From NCBI GenBank assembly GCA_011033025.1, contig WFMF01000162.1:62001-126000 (forward strand): a stretch of DNA of 64,000 bases, given 5' to 3'. A program made the translations under genes and the position numbers. The stretch's first letter is position 1; every line of letters begins with the position of its first letter. The notes beneath the pieces were generated by a model, which was not told the origin of the DNA, did not search any database, and saw only the letters and a program-made list of their open reading frames with translations. Positions 7,001 through 25,000 of the stretch are shown piece after piece. This DNA comes from Beroe forskalii (Eukaryota; Ctenophora; Nuda; Beroida; Beroidae).

Positions 7001-10000
7001 ATACAGTAATGTCAGACCGTTAGGCAATCACAATGATTACCTAAGAAAATTAATAATTTAAAATGAGAAATCGGACCCTGAAAAATATAGGTAAAGTTGC
7101 AAAAAGAAATTATATCCCCTGGAAAAACTGATGAAAAACTTCCATTCTCCAAAATAAAGTCCATGTCAAATCCAAAATGCCAATAGTCAGCGATGCTGGT
7201 GAGCGGGTCTATCTTGGGGGTGGAGGTGAGTTTTCTTCTATTGTGGCCTGGTGTTGATGTTGGGGACTGTCCTTCGTCTTCGGGAAGCTGATGATCCGGT
7301 CCTTTCTGATGATGTGATAGCACTCTGGCTCTTCTCTGATTTTCCTCCTCAGCTTATGAACAAGTTCTCTGTGGGCTTTCCTCTCTTCTTCAGATCTGTC
7401 TGGGCTGATGTACACTGAATTGTAACCCTTGTTTCCTCGTAACAGATGAGATCTCCTTAAAATGGACTCCACAGAACTGGCGCTGCTCAATGTAACCTTA
7501 ACAGGTTTGGGTGCTGAATTCGGTTCCCTTCGCCCAATCCGTTCACAGTTCTCGATATGTGGCTGTTCTCCTAACTGCTTCAATAGTCCAGTCACACTAG
7601 TCTTGAGGTTACCCTTCTCTTCAAGTCCGAAGATCATGATGTTCTTGCTCCTGGCGTTATCTTCTGTCACGACTTTCACTGCTTCTTTTACATCTTGCAC
7701 TGTGATTTGATCCATATCACCCTTCTGCGAACAGACAGCATCTCTGTAGCTCTTTATCTCCGTCTGCAGCGATGACTGAACCTGCTTGATCTGCTCCTTG
7801 CTTCCTTCCATCACCTCCTTCTTGCTTTCTATCACTTCCCGCTGCACCTCAATAATCGTTGACTTGTCTCCTAACGCCTGTTTCTGCAGCTCGTCAACTT
7901 CCACCTTCAGCTCGTCGATCTCCACTGTCGCATCCCGAATCAAGTTCCTACTTATTCGCAGATTATCCAATGCTTCAACCAGCCATGATGCGATGGTATC
8001 TTTGTCAAGTCTGGAGAACATTCTTCGTTCTAGCTTCAAGATCTTTTCACATTTGACAGCTTTTAGGATAGTATCAAAAGAGTCCTGTATCTCCTTTTGC
8101 ATCTCAAACGCTTGTTCGGTTGTGTATCCCAACGAATCTGTATCATTGCCACGGTCCGCAAGAGCGGATAACATCGCCATCTTCTAGAAGTAACACAATA
8201 CTATACAAATGTACTTGTATTAAATGTATAGTGCTGTCAAGCTTAGGGTTTCCATTATCTACTTCAAATCATTTATCTAGATAAATAGATAATTTTTTCG
8301 CCATTATCTAGATTATCTAGATAGTCTAGATAATTTTTGAATCCAAAATTTGTCACAATTTTCGAAGTAAGAAATGCACAATTACTGTTGCAGTGGAATA
8401 CCATCCTATAACCAGCTGTCGGTTATTGCTGGTTATTGAAATAAATGTTTTAATGACCACCAAAAGTTCATTTTGATATCGAATGAAGTTCAGGACATTC
8501 ATTGCTTCATTCCGATTGAGTTGAAATCAATTTTCATCCATCAATTCATAACAAAGTGAAAACAGCATCATCTACCAATTAGTTGATATGAATACTAGTA
8601 TCATTCATCGGAAAGGAGTCAATTAATGAGGAAATAGGGTAAATTTGATGACGATGCCTCGGAGAATTGAGAAAAGAAAGGAATTCCTCCTATTTAATCA
8701 CCATAACATACCACAGTCGATAGTTCCTCGAGCTGAATGCTAAATAATTAATGTTGGTAATTTTGTAGGTTAGTTTCAAACAAGCAATCACTTTGCAATT
8801 GCTGGAGGCTACTTTCGTACATATTTACAGCCTACCTTATGTGAAAGTGCGCCAATAAATTTGTGATATTGGGAGCAGAATATAATTGAGCGTTAAGAGT
8901 AGGCATTATTTAACTTTTGTCAAAAGGTTAAAGTTGCAAATGGCGATTTGTAAGATGTGATAAGATACTTTGAACATCGCCTTCTTATTCTGCCTTTTGT
9001 AATTTCAGTTTGACAAAGGTGAAATTATCAGTTAAACAGATTGTATTTGAATCAAAACACTAACAGTCTGTCCTTAAACCAGAGGTCCCTGAACATTGAA
9101 CAATGTTCATATAGAATTATGAAATGAGTTGTCCGGTCCATCTATGCGTAGCCATAAGTTGTCTTACTACCTAAGATCTCCAAAACGGATATGAAAAATA
9201 TGATCAGATAGGAAATTTTGAATATTTGAAATCCGATAATTATTGAAAAAGTTCTAGAAAATTGCGATTTTTGCTGAAAAAGGGATATGAAATTTATCTA
9301 GATATCTAGTAAAAATTATCTAGATAAATAGACAAAGATTTTTTGCAAATTATCTAGATAATCTTATCTAGATAATATCTAGATGGAAACCCTAGTCAAG
9401 CTAAAAGGTGCAAGCTGTACAGTGTACACACAGTTATTAACGAGAGCAGATAAAATCGTTACCAAATCCATACACACACTACACACATCCATACACACAC
9501 TACACACATCCATATATAAATTAATAAATATATATCTGTCTGTCCGGTCTTCCCTATATATAGCCACAGACGTCTCTGACACCACTCAGTACCCAATCAA
9601 GCATACCGATGATAGGAATGTTCATACAAAAGTACTGTGACGTTTGACACCACCAGGTATATAGACATCAGTTAGAGGAGTAGGCACATCCGATTTAAAT
9701 ATGACCTCATCACTGATAAGAACTACAGTACTATACATTGTACTGTACGAATTGCTGAAGCGAAAAAATGGTGAACGGTGGCCGGAGGCCACGGGCCCTG
9801 CTAGTGTTGCTAATGTGTGGTGAGGCCAGCAGGGCTTGTTGAGAGTTGCTGGTGGTGTTGCTAGGGTGTGATGAGTGCTGCTTGGCCGTGGTATGTGTTG
9901 CTGGGATGTGGCGAGTGTTGCTAGGGCTTGATGACTTGGTGAGTAGGTGAGTGTTACTAGAGCCTTCTAGTTTTCTCATAAAATGCATTGTTTATGATTA

Positions 10001-13000
10001 TCTTAAATGGAACTGTATGATGTGTATGGAAAATAGACTTAAATCTTAAATCTAATAGTTTTTATAAAATACTACTACTATTATTACAATACGTTTATTA
10101 TTACTATCATTTTTACTATTATTATTACTATTATTACTATTATTACAATACGTTTATACGTTTATACCGTCCTGTAGGTTTATACCGTTATTACATTGTT
10201 TTTATCTGCTAGATTTCGAACTGTGGGCGTTGTCTAATGTGGGCTGATACTGTAATGCGTGTTTCTATTCAAGTCTATTTGACCTGAAAACGTGCTGCTA
10301 TTCACACTGAACCTGTGCCTTGTCAACACTTTCCCTGCCTTGAGGTGGAGTAACTTGTTGCCTTCCTCCTGACTCAAATGCCTTTCAATAATCAAGATGT
10401 GGTACATAGCGTCTCGTGGTAGCTGTTGTACTGTCCGAGAGGAATGTACCTAATGTTGCTAATCGGTATGTACATTGAGGTACCCATTAGTAGTTAGAGC
10501 TCTGATATCACGACAATTTGGAGACTTCAATAGCTATTGTACATTAAAAAGCATCGATAAGTTTTACACTGAATTCTCCTTGCTTTTCACCAGGCTATGA
10601 AAGGAATCGAATGATCTTAGTAGCAAAGCCAGTTGCTCAGTTGCGGTTTAATAGAAAGTGATAAGCATCCCTTATTTAGAAATTTCATGCAACCTTATTA
10701 ACTACCTCATGCGCAGTTCCTTGTCTTAACGGCTGAGTGAACTAAGTGCTCCAAATTCCAATAACTCGATAGACTTGAACTCATTCCCTTGCCCTTACCA
10801 CAGTGGGCACTGAATCAAGCTATTGATCTTAGCATTGCTAATTCCTTCCTTTTTAATCTCTGTATGTGTTCAATGCCTCTGCTCTGTCTTGTGTACCACT
10901 TCACTCTTATAAGACCTGTGTGTTCTCTGAACCACTCGACATTGTCAAACTCATGTCTTCTGAGCCGTATACCGTATAATTATGCGATGACGGGTAAAAT
11001 ACCAGCACAATCCTTGTAAATGCTCTGCAGTCAAATGGGGAGTCCTATTGTTTTTGTGATAGGATTAGAGCGCGGTCACATGCCGTATATTAAAACACAT
11101 CAAGGGAATAGTTAGCAGCGTCCTCTAATATTATATGATCTCTGTCTGCGGGATTAGAAGCAGACCATTGTGCACTTTACACACTTTACACCTCTACACT
11201 TTAAACTTTACACCTCTAAAGTGCGCTGTCAATCCCCGGGAAATGACTCTCTTTCCCCGGAATACCGGACTCTAAACTTCTAATTTATATCCACCGTTCT
11301 GCTGTTTCCTGGCCCCACTCGAACAGAGGGCCGTGGTGGGTGACGTCATTATCAGGGTTTACAATGGTGCTCTGATGTCGTCACTCCGACTACCCTGCGC
11401 CTGCGTTATGCAATATAGGATGTGTTGTTTGTGAAGTCGGACAAGTGTTGCTGCATGTTGAGTGCGTGTGGCTAGGGAGGCGACAAGCTCTTTTCTTGCG
11501 ACCATATTATCCACCGGCTTATGATGTACGTAAACATTATAAGATAGTTATAGTGGCTCTGCAATAAGCAGTAATATGGCAAAGTGGTGACTGTATTAAT
11601 ATAGTGTATACCGTAACATACCTGATAGAAGAGAGAGACTTGGTAAGGTGGATAATGATAGAGGTGTGTTAGATGCGGGAATAATGTATATCGAGGTCGC
11701 AACTGAGAACTAAAGTAAGGATGGAAACTTACTGGTCTTTATTTTAACACCCCAATAAAGTGATCTTTAATCTATTCGGCCTTTTAAACCGGCTCTTTAG
11801 ACAAAGTAACTGGTATTCGCTTTTGGACAAGTGGCCTAACTATATCATAGTCTTTGGCTCAGATCTTTGTATTGATACTGAATACTAAACTATTTGACGA
11901 ACTTCATCACTCCACCAATCCCCTTCACGTGTTTTCAGACGTTTTTCGGCAAGACGTACATCTTCACGGACCACTGTATCGACACTAACCACGACGCTAG
12001 CGTGGAGACTGAGTTGCAGCAGAACGCAAACTACTGCGTAGAGAACCCCTGTTGGGACGTCTCCAAGTATCCCTTCTGCCTGTGTCGGGAGTCCAATGAT
12101 ACCAATCAAATCTACAAAACGGGTTGTGACGACGATACGATGAAGTTTACTGCACGGTACCTCAACGAGGAAACAGCAGTGTATAACACCAGCTTTGCTA
12201 ATCCTCTGATTGCCATGGTGCGACTTATGGTGCTGATTTCTACAGAGAATTATCCTGATGTCATGCGTGAGTGTTTCATAGATATTCTTATCACCTATTA
12301 TAGTGAATACTGATTCCTGAAGTGAGTGGTTTCCTGTTACGTATTGCCTCGTTTTGTAAGTTTGTATCAACACCAGACACCTTCACGATTTACAGTCCCT
12401 TTCAGTCAGGCGAAATAATGCTCCTAGAAACCTTGCCGTAGCTCGATTATGAAAAGCAGTATGATAGTCAGCAATAGCTCAATAGTGATAAGTGCGATAT
12501 AGCGATTAGGTGCTTTTTAATGGGTTCATGGAATGTATGTTGATAAATTGTTTCTCTAATTCTGTGTTACATATTATTCGGCAACATCAAACTTATGATT
12601 TAACACTGGTAACATATCACTGTGGGCTGTTTGACATAGGTGTTTCTTGTTGCGCTCGTGTGGGACAACTATCGTCGAAAGGGTCTTCCCAAAACCTGCT
12701 CAATTTATACGTGTGTTGCTATGGCTAGTCTCCACAGCGGTGTTTATGACGCGCCGCGCGCACGCGGCACTCACTTCTGTTCCATGTTTCATCCCGCGGC
12801 CGGTCCGGTTCTGCATTCCGGATTTTTGGGCTGTTTTCCAGATTTTAGTTTTTCCAAGTCCAGTAAAGTCATATTGGTTGGTAGTGAACCTGGATAGCAA
12901 GGTTAATCGGGTAGGTTGGTAAGGTAGCTAGTGCAATCCAGTGATGTATGTACAGTACAAAGGCTGCTGTTCCTCATGCCTGATATGATACTGACACGAG

Positions 13001-16000
13001 TGGTGTCAACGTCATTGAGTTGGCATGTGGAATGTCCATACGTAGCCGTTCGTCATTGATGACAAAGTGGTGTCAGCAAACATATATAAGGGCATGTTTT
13101 GCAGGTCTCGCCATTATTCTTTCGTAGTTGCTTGCTTAACTTGTTGTTTGATAAAGTGTCGTTGTTAATAAGGTACCGTTGTAAATAAGGTACCGTTGTA
13201 AATAAGGTACCGTTATAAATAAGGTAGCTTTGTTAATAAGGTACCGTTGTTAACAACAAGGTACCGTTGTTAACAACAAGGTACCGTTGTTAACAACAAG
13301 TAACCGTTGTTAACAACAAGGTACCGTTGTTAACAACAAGGTACCGTTGTAAACAAGGTACCGTTGTTAACAACAAGGTAACGTTGTTAACAAGGTAACG
13401 TTGTTAACAACAAGGTAACGTTGTTAACAACAAGGTACCGTTGTTAACAACAAGGTACCGTTGTTAACAACAAGGTACCGTTGTTAACAACAAGGTACCG
13501 TTGTTAACAACAAGGTACCGTTGTTAACAACAAGGTACCGTTGTTAAAAAGTTACCGTTGTTAACAACAAGGTGCCGTTGTAAACAACAAGGTACCGTTG
13601 TAAACAACAAGGTACCGTTGTTAACAACAAGGTACCGTTGTTAACAACAAGGTACCGTTGTTAACAACAACGTACCGTTGTTAACAACAAGGTACCGTTG
13701 TTAACAACAAGGTACCGTTGTTAACAAGGTACCGTTAATAAGATACCGTTGTTAACAAGGTACCGTTGTTAACAAGGTACCGTTGTTAATAAGGTACCCT
13801 TGTTAACGCACTAACGCAGTGTATCGGTTCATTGACCGTTGTTAACAACAAGGTACCGTTGTTAACAACACGGTACCGTTGTAAACAAGGTACCGTTGTT
13901 AACAACAAGGTACCGTTGTTAACAACAAGGTACCGTTGTTAACAACAAGGTACCGTTGTTAACAACAAGGTACCGTTGTTAACAACAAGGTACCGTTGTT
14001 AACAAGGAACCGTTGTTAATAAGGTGCCGTTGTTAACAAGGTACCGTTGTTAACAAGGTACCGTTGTTAATAAGGTACCTTTGTTAACAAGGTACTGTTG
14101 TTAACAACAAGGTACCGTTGTTAACAAGGTACCGTTGTTAACAACAAGGTTACGTTGTTAACAACAAGGTAACGTTGTTAACAAGGTACCGTTGTTAATA
14201 AGGTACCGTTGTTAACATCAAGGTACCGTTGTTAACAAGGTACCGTTGTTAACATCAAGGTACCGTTGTTAACAAGGTACCGTTGTTAACAAGGTACCGT
14301 TGTTAACAAGGTACCGTTGTTAATAAGGTACCTTTGTTAACAAGGTACCGTTGTTAACAACAAGGTACCGTTGTTAACAAGGTACCGTTGTTAATAAGGT
14401 GCCGTTGTTAACATCAAGGTAACGTTGTTAACAAGGTACCGTTGATAACAAGGTACCGTTGTTAACAAGGTACCGTTGTTAACAAGGTACCGTTGTTAAC
14501 AAGGTACCGTTGTTAACAAGGTACCGTTGTTAACAAGGTACCGTTGTTAACAAGGTACCGTTGTTAACAAGGTACCGTTGTTAACAAGGTACCGTTGTTA
14601 ATAAGGTACCGTTGTTAATAAGGTACCGTTGTTAATAAGGTACCGTTGTTAATAAGGTACCGTTGTTAATAAGGTACCGATGTTAACAAGGTACCGTTGT
14701 AAACAAGGTACCGTTGTTAACAAGGTACCGTTGTTAACAAGGTGCCGTTGTTAATAAGGTACCCTTGTTGACGCACTAACGCAGTGTATCGGTTCATTGA
14801 CCTCGTTGAGCTCGGTACTAATGTTCCCGTGGTACTTGATATGTGGTACTTGATATGTGGTTCTTGATATGTGGTTCTTGAATCTTGATATGTGGTACTT
14901 TATTTTTTATTTTGAAGGTTTTACGGCCAATGACAGGAATCGAAGGATTCAAGTGAAATGAAGCCAGTGACGGTTAAGGAAGTGTAATCCATACTTTCTT
15001 CGCCCGAGACTTCGCTGCAATTTAACCCTCCCGCACAGTTTCCTGTCCGCTCGGCTGAGTAAACCGTCGGGCTGCATAGGCTCAAGATGAATCTCACTCT
15101 AGCTCAGTGGTGCTGGCCGGGAATCGAACCCGGGATCTTTCGATCCTGTGCTCAACTCGATACCACTACACCACTGACCCTATGTGGTACTTGATGAAAT
15201 TTAACTGCTAGTATCTCAATTTCCCGTCATCAAGAACTGTAAATATTATATATGTATGGCACGTTGGTACATTCTGTATGTTGGGTTTGCACATTTTAAC
15301 CTCGGACTCAGCACAATCATGACCCTCTCCTATTTCAGTTCCCGCGTACAAGGCATCAAGACTTTCTCTCGGTAAGACATTTTCCTTTATATGGAGTTCT
15401 ACTAGGTTTCGTGATTCAACGATATGACTATGGTAAATATTCGAAGTTAACCATAATTGACTTCACACAGTTTCATTGACAAAATCCCCTGAATTTCAGT
15501 CTACTTCATCGTGTTTATATTCATCGGGATGTTCCTCTTGCTGTCCGTCCTGTTGGCTGTCATTGTGGAGTTCTGGTTGTCTTACCTCAAGAAAACAAAC
15601 GACACAGAAAAGCGAAAAGAGCGTCTGGGGATAACTAAAGCCTTCATTTGGATTGACAAAGATCGTGAGTGTCATGGCTTCACGCGCATTTAAAACTGTA
15701 TGCATAAACTTTGAAGATGTAATTTACACCTGTTCATGTTTTTTTTATTAATTTTTCGTCATCACTAATAGCTAAAGTAACATCTGAAACCTTCCCCAGA
15801 AAACTACTACATCAAGGAACACTCCTGGAACGAGTTGATTCTGCTGCTGAAGAAGGACTTCACCAAGCTCCAGTCTCACTTCATGTTCCAAATGCTGGAC
15901 TGGGAGCAGAAGGGGCAGCTCGATGTGCTGGATTTCCTGAACATCACTGAGGCCCTGAAGCTGCACTACACGCTGAAGGACGCAGATACTGCTATTGAGA

Positions 16001-19000
16001 ACACTGAAATCGGGCAATTCGCAAGGTGAGCGCGTCAAACGACTTGTCGTTGATTTAGTGAAAAGTTACTGCGCGTGAAAAGAGTGGTTTTCCGAGTTTA
16101 TACGATCAAAAAACTTTATTTGGACAATGGACATTGTTACTGTACTCAAGTAAACATTGTATACTGGACAAAGTGTACATACTTCTTGAACCCAAATCCC
16201 TCCTCCAGACGTATCCTGAGTTACTACTTCACTATAAACTTCTGTGGGTGGCTGAAGCCAAGGAACATCAGTGTCCGGACTGTCTCCATCGCCTTCTCCT
16301 TCCTCCACACAGCCCTGGCCATTGTGCACACCTACGACATGAGTCAGACGTACATCATAGTCCGAACTACCATCAACACCGTCATCCTTCTGGTGCTCCT
16401 GTCTGAGGTCAGTGGGGCTGATTTATCTGCTGTTTTTAAGATACTATTTTTGTATTTTAGTTAATGACAATTGCCATATTACTCATTTCGCACTTAATCA
16501 ATTTCATCACCACTTCTCTCTTCAGGTTTTACTGAGAGTAATGGCTCACGGCTCAGGGTTCTTCCACCCCCTCCTAAACAAGTGGGAGGTTGCCAGTATC
16601 ACGGGGGCTTTCATATCCATGATCGGCTATTGGATCACGTGAGTGATTTTACACCTTTATATCCTGTGAAATAAAACCCTTCCATGATCTTACCCTCATA
16701 TCTCACCCCTTTTTGTGTGTCGCCCAAGGTCGTTTTCCACGCTATCAAAAAGAGGACAGGGTATGTGGTGATGAACTTCACAGCTTTACAATTGAATGTT
16801 CAATCAACACGCCCTCTCTCTCTCTCCCTACAATACTATACAAATCACGTTTACCCTTCCCCCTCTAATGCAGTAAACCACTTTAAAACAGTACACCCCT
16901 TCCTGACCCCCATGTCCCCTCTATTACAGTGCACCACTAACAGTAACATAGTAACCCCTTGCTGACCCCTGTCCCCTCTATTACAGTACACAAATAACAT
17001 AGTAACCCCTTGCTGACCCCTGTCCCCTCTAATACAGTACACAAATAACATAGTAACCCCTTGCTGACCCCTGTCCCCTCTATTACAGTACACAAATAAC
17101 ATAGTAACCCCTTGCTGACCCCTGTCCCCTCTAATACAGTACACAAATAACATAGTAACCCCTTGCTGACCCCTGTCCCCTCTATTACAGTACACAAATA
17201 ACATAGTAACCCCTTGCTGACCCCTGTCCCCTCTATTACAGTACACAAATAACATAGTAACCCCTTGCTGACCCCTGTCCCCTCTAATACAGTACACAAA
17301 TAACATAGTAACCCCTTGCTGACCCCTGTCCCCTCTAATACAGTACACAAATAACAAAGTAACCCCTTGCTGACCCCTGTCCCCTCTATTACAGTACACA
17401 AATAACATAGTAACCCCTTGCTGACCCCTGTCCCCTCTAATACAGTACACAAATAACATAGTAACCCCTTGCTGACCCCTGTCCCCTCTATTACAGTACA
17501 CAAATAACATAGTAACCCCTTGCTGACCCCTGTCCCCTCTAATACAGTACACAAATAACATAGTAACCCCTTGCTGACCCCTGTCCTCTCTATTACAGTA
17601 CACAAATAACATAGTAACCCCTTGCTGACCCCTGTCCCCTCTAATACAGTACACAAATAACATAGTAACCCCTTGCTGACCCCTGTCCCCTCTATTACAG
17701 TACACAAATAACATAGTAACCCCTTGCTGACCCCTGTCCCCTCTAATACAGTACACAAATAACATAGTAACCCCTTGTCCAGGTGGCTGTCCTCCCTGAA
17801 ATCTGCATCAGGGGGCGTGGAGAGCTCCACCCCCACTGCAGACGACTACTTCAGAACCATCTGGGAAACGGGCATCCTCCTCCGACTGTGTCTGCAGTTC
17901 CGGGCTGTCAAGGGGCAACTCGTCTTCATGTACAAAGTAATGCGAGCTGATCTTACCCTGCATGTTCTGCTGCTTATTTAGAATAATAATAAGTGGAACC
18001 TAGACCTGCTGTCATGATGTAGATTCTGTAGGATTAGAGAAAGTTTGCTGTGTAGTGTGTTTTACAAGTCAGATTTATGAGTATGATATTTAACTGACCC
18101 ACCTTGCAGGTACTGAACGTTCTGATTGAACTCTTCTTTTTCATTTTAATCATCTTATACGTGTTTCTGGGCATTGGCTTAGAGCTCTTTGCCATAGCGG
18201 ATGGTGGGGATGACAACTATTTCCAGCATTTCAATTGCAAGCTGGTAAGTTGTGTGATTGACTATCTTCCCACACTAGAGATGGCATTTTGGGAGTGAGC
18301 CCCGAGTTATCCTCTACTCTCAAACACACAGTGCCGATGATGCCACTCCCAAGATGCCATCCCTCAGTGGCAGTGCCATGCCACTTAACCACCCGTCCTC
18401 CTCTCTCCTCGCAGGTCCTCCTAGTTTTACTGATGTTAATGCTATTTGTCCTCGTTATCTGTTACGTGTTCCTTATCATCGGCCTCGAATTGTTCGCCCT
18501 CTCCACAAACGAAGACCTCTCCTACAATTACTTCCAACAGTTCGGCTGCGAATTGGTAAGCCGGACACGAACCCCGTCTCTCAGACGCCGAAGCTTTGCT
18601 CGCATTCTCTGTTTTTCAAGGGGCGTTGCGCACGAGGAATGGGCATTGCGGCGCCATCACTTAACTATCGGCGGCGCATTAGCTTACCCATGCATAGGAT
18701 ATCTTGCGGAGTAATGGCGCAAGACAGCGGGTAATCTAATACGCCGCCAGTGTTGGCGCCCTCACCGGCCTATTGTTCGTGCGCGGCGTATTATGCGCAC
18801 CCGGGATGTTAAATAGCTCTGCTGCCGTGTCATGCCCTCCAGTAATCGGAGAGAGAGAGAACGCCCCTCTCTCTCCCCCTGCTCGCTCTGTCTTGTGTTG
18901 ATGTACACCTTGTTATAACCTCAGATATATATCTCTTTGCAAATAACATGCAATAACGTGAGCCCCTAACGTGATGTGAAGTGAAATCACGTACTTCTTT

Positions 19001-22000
19001 ACTAATAATAATACCTTTCTATGCCTTTCGATTTTCACTCCGTGACATGTTTTTAGAGAGGGACCGCTGGTTAGACATTGGGTAATGCTTCTGTTTACAT
19101 ATTGCTTGTGTTGTGATGCTACGTGCAGTTTAAAACATGTCACATTTCTTACGATATAATACCTCTCAATACCTCTCTCAATATAAATATAATACATACA
19201 ATTGCTGGATTACTCAAATTATTAATGATATTAACCATTAACATCTCCGGCACGTTGATCTTATTCTACTGTTATCTTCTTTACAATTAACCTTATTGGA
19301 AATGAACCTGATATTGGGTACCCCTTTTTATTTTGTTATGGCAATAATACTGCATGGGGAAACACGTTATTACTTGATTAATGATATTTTAAAGCGCAAT
19401 GAAGGTAGTTTTAGAGGCATCATGAAGACCGCAATCAGAGTTATTCGAGCTGAACAATGCTGTTGGCTTATCATTCATAACGCATTGTGATAACTTCCTT
19501 ATCAACTTCCTAGGATGACTGGTCGACTGATTGCAATACTGTCGCAGTATACCACCCAATACCTTACTTGTAATTCATAATTCCAGTTTGAATCGTGTTT
19601 ATAAATTACATTAAATATTTTTCTTCATTTTTTTACTGTATGATATTAATATCATGTTTTATCGCTACATTTCGATATTCTGCAGCACACCATTATTATT
19701 GCGTACCGTATCGGCTCTGATTTTAAAAATACAGATCTCCGAAATGCTCTTAATCTCGAAAAAAACATGTTTTCTGGTATAGTTCTTTAAGTTTCTTGCT
19801 ATTCCGTTTAGTGATCGATTTCCATTTTACTTGGGGTAGTGCTATTTTAGGCCACATATCGAGAAAGGCCAAAATGGTGCTGTCCCAGGCCCCCTCCTTT
19901 CTCATCCAATATTTTTTATCGTACACCATTTCCTTGCTAATCGGTTCTGGATTGCTACTTACTGCTACTTATGGTCAACTCCTTGACCTCTGCTAAGTCA
20001 ACCTCTATTTATTCTTATATAGTTAGTGTAAAGACATGTATAACTATCTTCAGTTTTGTATGTTGTGGCTAGAAACGATCCTGAAGTCTGCTATAATTGT
20101 TTTGTCACTTGTAAATGAACAAAGAAGTGCTAACAAGTTAAAACACATCTTTTGCCGACAAGCCAATCTTTATAATACAGCTATACCTCAAGTTCACCGA
20201 CTTTATTTCATGTCAAACCATTGTGATCCATTAAGTTATTATTGTGCGAAAGCTTTTTAGGACCGTTAAAAACCAGGCTTGAATTAAAAAATAATGCAAT
20301 GATTTGGAAACCCAACCTCTGACATCTTCCACTGCATGTTATGAATGCTTCTCTAGTTTTACTTCCATATACAGTTTTAATTGTATCACAGCAAAGCAAA
20401 TTAGCAGTTTGGTGCTGCTGAAAACTTCGGGGAGCGAACAGAAGTAGTTTCCATCCAACGGACTGGGATCCAATCATCCATGATCCCAATGAGAAGAAGA
20501 TAAGAAACTGAAGTTACGAGCATCATTCCCCAATATTAGAAGAAAATAAGAAACTGAATTTATGATCATTATTACCCAAAAAGAAGATGAGGAACTGAAT
20601 TTATGATCGTTATAACGGAAACAGCTATGATAACAATAGCCTGCTTCATGCTTGGTCCAGTGACTGCAATTTCTTCTTCATGTGGAAACTTGGAGAAAGG
20701 AAATCATGGCACAATCACTTCATTGCTGTTAGGTTTAGGATTGGGTTGATAGTATGTATTTTGGCTTATGCAACATGAGTTCTGTTAATAAGCTTTAAAT
20801 CTGCATTATTGTGCACATATGAAGTTTTCCGTAAAAAACAATTGCAGGCTGTTTTCACTGGGATGTGTGTTCATGTAGGTTGAAAGTCAAGACAAGGTCA
20901 GGCGATCTAGATTCCAAAACCCTGCCTCCTCTGAGGCAATGTTATTTTGACCTGGATGGACACACATGTCAGTTGCTTAGTAATTGTAGTTTGGGAGGTT
21001 ATGAAGCTTTTTGCCGTTCTATACGCTCTTCAACGCATGGTTCAGTAGAAAGTTAAAAAATAATCAACATCCATCAAAATTGAAACTAACCCCCCCCCCA
21101 CAATTTTTCCACATATTTTGACAGTTACTCACTTCACTTTGACAATATCAATATTATGCCAGGTTGATAGGTTGCAGGGCTAATTTTCAAATAGTGAAAA
21201 CACGAACATTTTATAGAATACCACTTTGGCAAACTACCGCCTTGTCCTACCACATTCGCATTCTACTGTCTTGGCAAAATACCACCTTGACATTCTATCA
21301 CCATGGCAAACTTGATAATACCACCTTGGCATACTATCTTGACATCTTCCTTCCACAAATATTCTTCTTCCAAAATAAAGAATACCTACTAAAATTTAGA
21401 TATTTTGCTAATGACGTTCATATCATTATAGTGATTGTTGCCTTGTTAAGTATAGCTGACTGATCTTTCCCTGACAAATCTATTCCCTATTCCCCTTTCT
21501 AACATGCCCGTTTCAGGGTTTCATCGACCCTACCTGTGGGTTCATCACCCTCCTGCAACTGATCACCACCAGTAACTGGCATTCAGTGATGAACTCAGTG
21601 GCCCTGGCCAGTGGTAACTGGGCCTATGTCTACTTCATCCTCTTCTACATTGCCATAGATCTCATACTGCTCGATTTAATGATCGCCATCGCCATTGAAA
21701 TGTACAATGCTGTACGGTCGCAGTTTGAAGATGCCTTCGGGGACCAACCAGGCATCTGCTTTGAGGTTTGACTTCATAACGTGTCTACTGTCTAGTGTAG
21801 ATCAGAAGCTGCTTTGAAATAACAGCATGTTTCAGCTATGGCTAACAACAAATATATTAGTACCTATTGAATAGTTTTTCTGTCCTGGTATCACTCTATC
21901 AGTCCATCCCTCCCTCCCTCCCCTACTCCTTTAGCTAGTACTAGTAGTTGTCATGCCCCCATGCCCTACTATAACAAAGCCTTATCCCTGACACAGGTGT

Positions 22001-25000
22001 AGTTATAGTAGTCATGCCCCCATGCCCTACTCACAAACCCTTATCCCTGTCCCAGGTGTACGAGGGCACGGTCCCAGAACCGACGTGTAGCTCTGTCTCC
22101 AAACCTGAACGTCGTCGGTCCCGTCTCGGTTCCATATTCAACACTAATGGCACTGGTCAGCCGGAGCCCTACCGGAAACTTATTCTGGAGGTGACGCGGA
22201 GCAAAAAGGGGTCGTGGCGTCAGAGTATCATTACTAGTGAGATATTCCTCATTGATTCTAACGAAATTGATGACATTCAGAAGTCCCTGGATAAGGATTA
22301 CCCCGGGGCGAAGAAGGATAAGGGCGGGCATGCGGGTGACGAAAAGGGGGGCATAGAGGTCAAATTGCTCTATTCAGAAAAAAGCAATGAGCGAATGAAA
22401 CTGAACAAGCCAGACTGCAAGTTATACATCAAATCAGTTTTTAACGATTTTAACGACAATCCACAAGGTAAAATCTTGATGGAACTTAATGACAATCAGT
22501 CAAGTTTGCATTTCAAACTAATATTTAAAAGTGACAGTAAGCCTATTAGGGGAATTTTTAGACATAGCGACGATGTAAAATGCGAGGATTACTATGAACT
22601 CGACGAGAGTGAATTCTCGTACCACCCGCACACGAACGATTATCATGTGTATAAGCACTGGCGAATGAAAAGGATTCAGAAACAAAACCTCATTCATGGG
22701 CAGGTGTCATTCCTTATCCTTACCCAAGATAAACCGAACGGCGCCATGGTCGCAGAGATTGATGGCATTCAGGTTGGTCTTTTTGGAAATTTTATTTGGT
22801 AGGCATATTATTAACTGACACGCATGATTTAATGATAAAAACATGAACTTCACATGCTTCTACGCATACTTTGCCATTTCTTTAATTTGGTAATTCCGAA
22901 AAAATATCACGAAAGTACGAATAGAAAAGTGTGATTCTTTAATTTACCCTAAGGCGGCGAAGTAAAAATGGCATGATCCAAATTTCATTTGGAATTCTTT
23001 GATCACTTTTTTTCTCGATATATCTAGTGTAAAAACTATTGATAATGAAATTAGCTCGACTCACTTGATGGTATTGCTCTACAATATTGATATTGCTCTA
23101 CAACATTGAGGTATTGAGTATTGACTCATAATGGTATGTAATTTGCAGCAAGAAAAGCAAAGGTGGATGATGCGGAAGGAGGAAACGCAACAAAACGCGG
23201 AAACGTTCGGCAAGATCTCGCCTCTTCTGCAGTGGTTTGCGCACCGAGTCACGACCCACGTCATGAAGGACGAGGACAGCGACGAAGAGGATGAGAGTGC
23301 GGTGGAAGAGGGGGCGATCGTTAAGAAACAGGTTAGAGTGCGGTGGAAGAGGGGGCGATCGTTAAGAAACAGGTTAGAGTGCGGTGGAAGAGGGGGCGAT
23401 CGTTAAGAAACAGGTTAGAGTGCGGTGGAGGAGGGGCGATCGTTAAGAAACAGGTCACAAATCATCCAATTTTCATCCGATTATGGTGAAAATGTTCTTT
23501 TCAAACAAATCTTACCTCATTAATAAACCCTTTTCAACTTTGAAGTTAGTTAATCACGGTATTGTTCGGTATGGTTATCTTTGTGACCTATTTAGGGCAG
23601 AAGTTTACTAAAAAATCTCCCAATTTCCAGGAGTTCAGACGGAAAATCTACATTCCTAACGAGTACAAGACTGAAACGAAGTACATCAACGATGCCCACA
23701 AGGAATGGCTGAACATGTATCAGAGAGACGTGAGTTTCTCCCTGCTTCATGTTGTCTTGACGGTTTATTGACAGCAGTGTACCTATGATTAGCTTAACCA
23801 TATTATCCCGAATTGACCAATCAGCGTGCAAGTTGACCGTCAGTTCGTGTGTTGATTGGTTGAAGTGAGCTGTGGGAAACACGGTGCTGGTACATTCCGT
23901 TATTCATGAATCTCATTCATGATTCATACCACGTTATTCCGAAGCACCACGGACCTATCACACGACTGTTGTGAATCCTCCACCCTCTTATGAAACCCAT
24001 TGAACACCCTTCAGATCCCTGAGACTCTGGGCGACAGTCCTGCTGCTGTCCTGGACCAAGTGAAGAACTTCATGGTGAACCAGTCCAACACCAGCGGCGG
24101 GTTACTCGCTCCCCCGGGCGGCGGGAACACCTTCTTCCCGCCCGCGCAGGACGTCTCCTCCTCCGAGGACGACGACGACTCGGACGACAGCATCGAGGGC
24201 GACTCCAATCCCGGACTGCAGATCGGAGGCGGGGCAAACAAACTGAAGGGGCTATTCGAAGCCATCTCCAGCGGGACGCCCGAACGGAAACAAAGCACTA
24301 ACTCACGGAAGTCGTCGTCGAGCTCGTTCAGATCGCAGGTCTCGAACCGGTCGTGTCGGTCGCAGCCGACCCCCGGGTCAGGGAAACCCACTCTGATCAT
24401 CCCTCAAGTTATCAGCACGGACCATGACGAGGAAGTTAGCAGAAACGCAGGAGCACCTTCACCAGGTGATTACCATACCATGGGTATCATGTTTACCATG
24501 GTTAACAGTGCCATGTGTTGGTCACCATGGATACCATGGTTACCAGTGTCATGTTTTGGTTACCATGGACCATGGTTACCAGTGTCATTTCCTGGTTATC
24601 ATTGTTACCAACTTGTCATGTGTTGGTTACCAGTGTCACTTTCTGGTAACCATTGTCCTATCCTGGTTACCATGGTTACCATTGTCATTTCCATATGTAC
24701 ATAATATGGTGGTTACCATGACTCCATTGTTTTTTTTTTTTTGTTTTTTTTTTGAAAAACGTACCACGAAAACCAATGGAGTGGGGCCCATCACCTGTGC
24801 CCCGCCCGCGCCCTGCCCTTTGCATGCTAACAACTCTCTGGGTATACAAGGCCAGAACGCGGACTGGAGGCAGGCACCGGCGCACCACCACACTGCCTTT
24901 CGGGGCAGTCTTGGACAAGATAATCCCCAACCTCTGACGGTAGCCACCTTATACGCCCGTTCCCGGGCCAAGACTAGTCCTAAACCAAAGGGTGTGGCTA

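Follow-up and report, generated by a model that had tools for sequence, protein, structure and literature searches.

The window, a 64,000-nucleotide stretch of DNA from the ctenophore Beroe forskalii, carries on its forward strand the exons of a two-domain channel gene. Our gene model draws on the window, a further 10 kb upstream and a paralogous locus, and the spliced protein used here (779 residues) lacks the initial coding exon(s) and the final exons. Domain I is encoded by exons for S3 (1007-1088), S4-S5 (1916-2071), the turret and filter (11939-12266, with the motif STENYPDVM) and S6 (15500-15664), and a 33-nt exon that has an equivalent in the paralogue (15339-15371) lies after the filter exon. 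A domain linker exon (15800-16025), with an EF-hand match under the curated cut-off, leads to the domain II exons for S1 (16209-16407), S2-S3 (16526-16638), and S4 with the start of the S4-S5 linker (17783-17936). Two homologous exons follow, A (18110-18244) and B (18415-18555), separated by a 170-nt GT-AG intron (18245-18414); each encodes a domain II segment that runs from the end of the S4-S5 linker through S5 into the first part of the turret. An exon common to both forms (21517-21765) supplies the domain II pore helix, the filter (TTSNW) and S6, and a further exon (22056-22772) encodes a C-terminal region that is also found in the relatives P0004-P0006.

Pfam places Ion_trans on two stretches of the spliced protein. 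With this protein as query, two-pore channels account for the best 14 of 52 PDB sequences; the top match is two pore channel 3 (TPC3; 6v1q, E 1.2e-21), which aligns across both domains, as do TPC1 chains (5tua, 5e1j and others), with E values up to 5e-20 in the TPC3 and TPC1 set. The gene has two Ion_trans domains, ordered as in these channels, and differs from them in its long C-terminal region. The domain content and the nearest solved relatives support its assignment as two-pore-channel-like. Outside the ctenophore-like group the nearest relatives are P0010-P0023 (23-25% identity), among them proteins from sea urchin, coral, a hydrozoan and amphioxus. P0010-P0014 and P0016-P0023 are two-pore-like channels, several of them titled only “uncharacterized” or “hypothetical”, and bear Pfam accessions that we take to be SH3-type; the ctenophore genes seem to be relatives of these SH3-bearing channels.

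Tandem arrays overlap or adjoin splice sites in both the channel gene and its paralogue, at 2066-2218, 16890-17777, 21945-22060 and 23294-23455 in the window, and elsewhere at L007:915-2612 (C206:52915-54612) and L005:5801-6212. Several of the repeat units contain a splice site together with an exon edge: one array consists of 31 copies of a 55-bp unit, each comprising an acceptor plus 30 nt from the beginning of an exon, and another of 6.4 copies of a 64-bp unit at the acceptor of the paralogue’s pore exon. The arrays look like repeated amplification of exon-intron borders. A separate 1.6-kb array (13160-14769; 17-bp unit, 88 copies) is located within an intron. The 9.9-kb intron of the channel gene holds, on the minus strand, a 324-residue open frame (7209-8183), possibly akin to the coiled-coil proteins of retrotransposons, which it resembles by eye.

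Exon A (135 nt) translates without a stop to VLNVLIELFFFILIILYVFLGIGLELFAIADGGDDNYFQHFNCKL, and exon B (141 nt) to VLLVLLMLMLFVLVICYVFLIIGLELFALSTNEDLSYNYFQQFGCEL, likewise without a stop. Both are preceded by CAG and followed by GTAAG, both have lengths divisible by three, and both are phase 0 at either end. When splice sites were scored with a matrix trained on 27 other assigned sites of this gene and its paralogue (29 sites ranked for each type), the acceptor and donor of A ranked 4 of 29 and 1 of 29, and those of B 13 of 29 each. The two translations are homologous, being 58-60% identical, and a tblastn search within 31 kb with A as query found B at E 7e-9, a likeness beyond chance. The boundaries, homology, phase and good splice sites given to both exons in the original prediction are thereby confirmed to the base, and their identity as the domain II S5 of a two-pore-channel-like gene is borne out by the alignments with PDB entries and with relatives. 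Within the first 31 codons, differences between A and B fall at codon positions 1, 2 and 3 in 16, 5 and 24 cases, respectively, and 13 of the 19 residues common to the two exons use different codons, which points to an ancient duplication in which the protein sequence has been constrained.

A whole-genome search (216 Mb, E<=0.001) with either A or B as query returned the same three places: the two exons themselves and a single exon (88377-88514) of a paralogous gene on contig C316. The paralogue belongs to the same family and has the same S5 exon boundaries and phase as the window gene, but profile and protein searches found a single S5 exon in it, against two in the window gene. Two minus-strand hits to the S5 profile (E 0.6-0.7) were disregarded. 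Among 14 exons scanned (E<=0.05), A and B formed the sole tandem pair, and the remaining off-site hits were short pieces of the tandem array at the first modelled exon.

The spliced-protein search returned 22 proteins, five of which (P0004-P0008) are close full-length relatives. The nearest named one is the Mnemiopsis leidyi protein P0006 (80% identity), a gene model on a chromosome-size record. In P0004, P0005, P0006 and P0007 an A-type S5 is joined directly to the pore segment, whereas the S5 of the more distant P0008 (50%) is neither clearly A nor B. Three of these records come from contigs of 4329 nt (P0004, open frame 1334 residues), 5335 nt (P0005, 1337 residues) and 4296 nt (P0007, 1262 residues); with 3.8-4.0 kb of uninterrupted coding sequence in contigs of 4.3-5.3 kb, they look like spliced RNA. 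The evidence for transcripts with A alone comes from these records of relatives.

A search aimed at B gave three proteins from three candidates, all with B, and a further protein search gave six, four carrying B and two only the pore exon. B-type sequences are thus found in five other records (P0026, P0027, P0028, P0029 and P0030), which may represent fewer than five species. P0026 and P0029, the strongest of these, each read in a single open frame from A, through 27 or 42 residues, to B and then VR. The inter-exon residues start with VS and finish with Q, corresponding to introns of 81 and 126 nt, so these two records are unspliced sequence, though not necessarily genomic DNA, in which A and B stand in tandem with their splice sites in place. 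The A-then-B arrangement for which related sequences were to be searched thus recurs in both. Decay of one exon in relatives, which had been proposed as evidence against the pair, was not seen in the five B copies, all intact; these copies came from searches with B, which favor conserved copies and would miss decayed ones.

The two exon types are about equally conserved. Mean identity is 78.8% within A (21 pairs, 7 rows), 78.6% within B (15 pairs, 6 rows) and 56.2% between A and B (42 pairs), in sets that leave out P0008 and the paralogue rows (C316, P0009). The A and B copies of P0026 are 82% and 81% identical to those of the window, and those of P0029 are 69% and 72% identical. In a tree of 47 columns, the B rows form one clade (support 99/99), indicating that the A and B copies have not homogenised. 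The A rows are not a single clade, the bootstrap had not settled and P0008 and P0009 have long branches, leaving the root of the pair unsure. The single B clade makes the A/B duplication look older than the split of the window’s species from the sources of P0026 and P0029.

At eight aligned positions the A rows and B rows, taken from the same sets, have no residue in common. At position 7, at the start of S5, all seven A rows have glutamate and all five B rows that cover it have methionine. The residue is aspartate or glutamate in 17 of 19 aligned relatives (P0009, P0017 and P0018 not being in this alignment) and proline in P0024 and P0025. Further along S5, position 16 is leucine or methionine in A and cysteine in B, and position 21 is glycine in A and isoleucine in B. 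In the turret, subject to the alignment chosen, two residues before NYF lose their acid in B; the second of them, position 35, is aspartate or glutamate in A and histidine, lysine, arginine or tyrosine in B. The original prediction placed the differences in the lipid-facing S5 and in the start of the turret; by a hand count at 100 degrees per residue, the fixed differences lie on more than one face of the helix, and some lie in the turret. The B rows keep GLE-x-FA and NY-x-Q and contain no stop.

The recurring A-B order, the equal conservation of the two types and the consistent differences between them are best read as those of a maintained alternative exon, and B is probably a maintained coding exon. 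We consider it likely that A and B form a functional alternative exon pair, most probably mutually exclusive, in a ctenophore two-pore-type channel. The two alternatives adjoin and fit the same neighbors, and either one alone gives an open protein. Because channel topology calls for one S5 per domain and relatives carry A only, B would be expected to replace A rather than to join it, and we infer that B is used exclusively, in its place. The exclusive use originally predicted is upheld on the side of A, which stands alone in P0004-P0007; for B, protein searches of a collection clustered at 90% gave no record in which it is spliced to the pore exon. With such clustering, an A representative could stand in for a B isoform, and the absence weighs little.

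A reading in which only A serves as protein S5, and B is retained in some other role, such as that of a regulatory or decoy exon, would account for that same absence of a spliced B record and for the A-type S5 of P0004-P0007. We nevertheless consider it unlikely, as the B rows resemble one another at the protein level as closely as the A rows do, and as B retains GLE-x-FA and NY-x-Q, has no stop and keeps the frame on inclusion.

Inclusion of B together with A in some transcripts, which would give domain II an extra hydrophobic segment, is compatible with the reading frame: both exons are in phase and multiples of three, and A followed by B stays open through the pore exon. By established channel topology, however, a second membrane helix would misplace the pore loop to the wrong side of the membrane; moreover, B starts and ends where A does, and the four close full-length A-type relatives (P0004-P0007) join A straight to the pore segment. 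Joint inclusion is therefore distinctly improbable. That B belongs instead to a different transcript or nested gene with only this stretch in common is very improbable indeed, for although the 2961-nt intron after B has room for other exons, a profile of 16 S5 stretches found no third S5 copy above threshold in the window or in 30 kb of C316, a scan of 31 kb gave no second copy of the pore exon, the end phase of B fits the common pore exon, and the A-B order recurs in P0026 and P0029.

Returning to the alternative pair, we considered how one exon might exclude the other. No simple device for it emerged. An exclusion based on frame is not supported, as the protein stays open with A and B together and with neither, and every combination thus keeps the reading frame. 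The 170-nt A-B intron (other introns of the gene span 118-9867 nt) and the GT-AG sites of both exons indicate that exclusivity is explained neither by too short an intron nor by incompatible splice sites. Pairing between introns was assessed in five comparisons of 60 shuffles each, in the window’s genome alone, and gave long, gapped duplexes throughout. The intron before A paired with the first 500 nt after B better than 60 of 60 shuffles, the score of the A-B intron with those 500 nt was reached by four of 60, and the remaining three comparisons were reached by 7, 18 and 19 of 60, so that pairing is at most a candidate mechanism. The donor of the preceding exon (17936, AAA|GTAATG), which would serve both A and B, has the lowest score of the 29 donors, and its equivalent in the paralogue (C316:87879) the third lowest; a weakest donor in this upstream position would agree with what is often seen where exon choice is regulated.

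In the proposed switch, the spliceosome would link the S4 exon with one of the two alternatives, A or B, which would in turn be linked with the common pore exon. The A type of the full-length relatives suggests A as the likely default, and B may be used in restricted cells or stages. The choice would replace everything from the last part of the S4-S5 linker through S5 to the beginning of the turret, and would leave unchanged the filter and S6, which are encoded in the exon common to both forms. B has methionine where relatives keep an acid (E/D) at the S5 start, isoleucine where A has glycine, and no acids before NYF; the properties most likely to be affected would be the charge of the domain II vestibule and the way in which the voltage sensor and the S4-S5 linker couple to the pore. 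Two-pore channels are dimers, and A and B subunits could accordingly give AA, AB and BB channels.

Ctenophores are a very early branch of the animal tree, and how their muscles and nerves arose is a matter of debate. It is conceivable, as a tentative extension that we would not rate as probable, that ctenophores evolved a splicing switch for a whole two-pore-type pore helix and turret before the split of the lineages sampled, that B, having lost the S5 acid and the turret acids, differs in ion preference and in its coupling to voltage or ligand, and that this switch is a counterpart, reached independently, of exons 12a/12b of mollusc Cav3. If a two-pore channel has a conserved alternative pore helix, then the tuning of a channel core by exon duplication also arose beyond the calcium and sodium channels, whose families are well studied. 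The pair would also offer a natural experiment, in which one filter is combined with two S5 helices, and a conserved acidic residue is either present or absent.

In a literature search with little coverage of subscription papers, no title among the matches listed dealt with two-pore channels of ctenophores, or with an S5 encoded by alternative exons in any two-pore channel. Among those matches, the earlier statement that no such case is described in a TPC stands, but Cav3 channels are known to have alternative exons in the corresponding part of domain II (PMC9694082). In another paper, a mention of mutually exclusive exons concerns annotation (PMC8527503). From a ctenophore, a further study describes a predicted cluster of mutually exclusive exons, unlike any other known, in the Mnemiopsis muscle myosin Mhc2 (PMC3912159). 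Like the A/B pair, this cluster consists of homologous exons of a ctenophore gene for which mutually exclusive use is predicted; the Mhc2 cluster lies in a myosin motor domain, whereas A and B belong to a membrane channel.

The closest precedent found for the A/B pair is exons 12a/12b of the T-type channels of molluscs and nematodes, which are alternative exons in domain II before a common selectivity filter (PMC9694082). These exons code for the S5-P1 turret (39 and 50 residues), a single turret lysine moves the channel from calcium to sodium preference, and isoforms and functions were shown experimentally (PMC9694082). The likeness to A and B lies in the superfamily, the place in domain II and the difference in turret charge. 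Cav3 is a four-domain calcium channel in which the swap is limited to the turret, whereas the A/B pair, known here from sequence, would also exchange all of S5 together with the last part of the S4-S5 linker.
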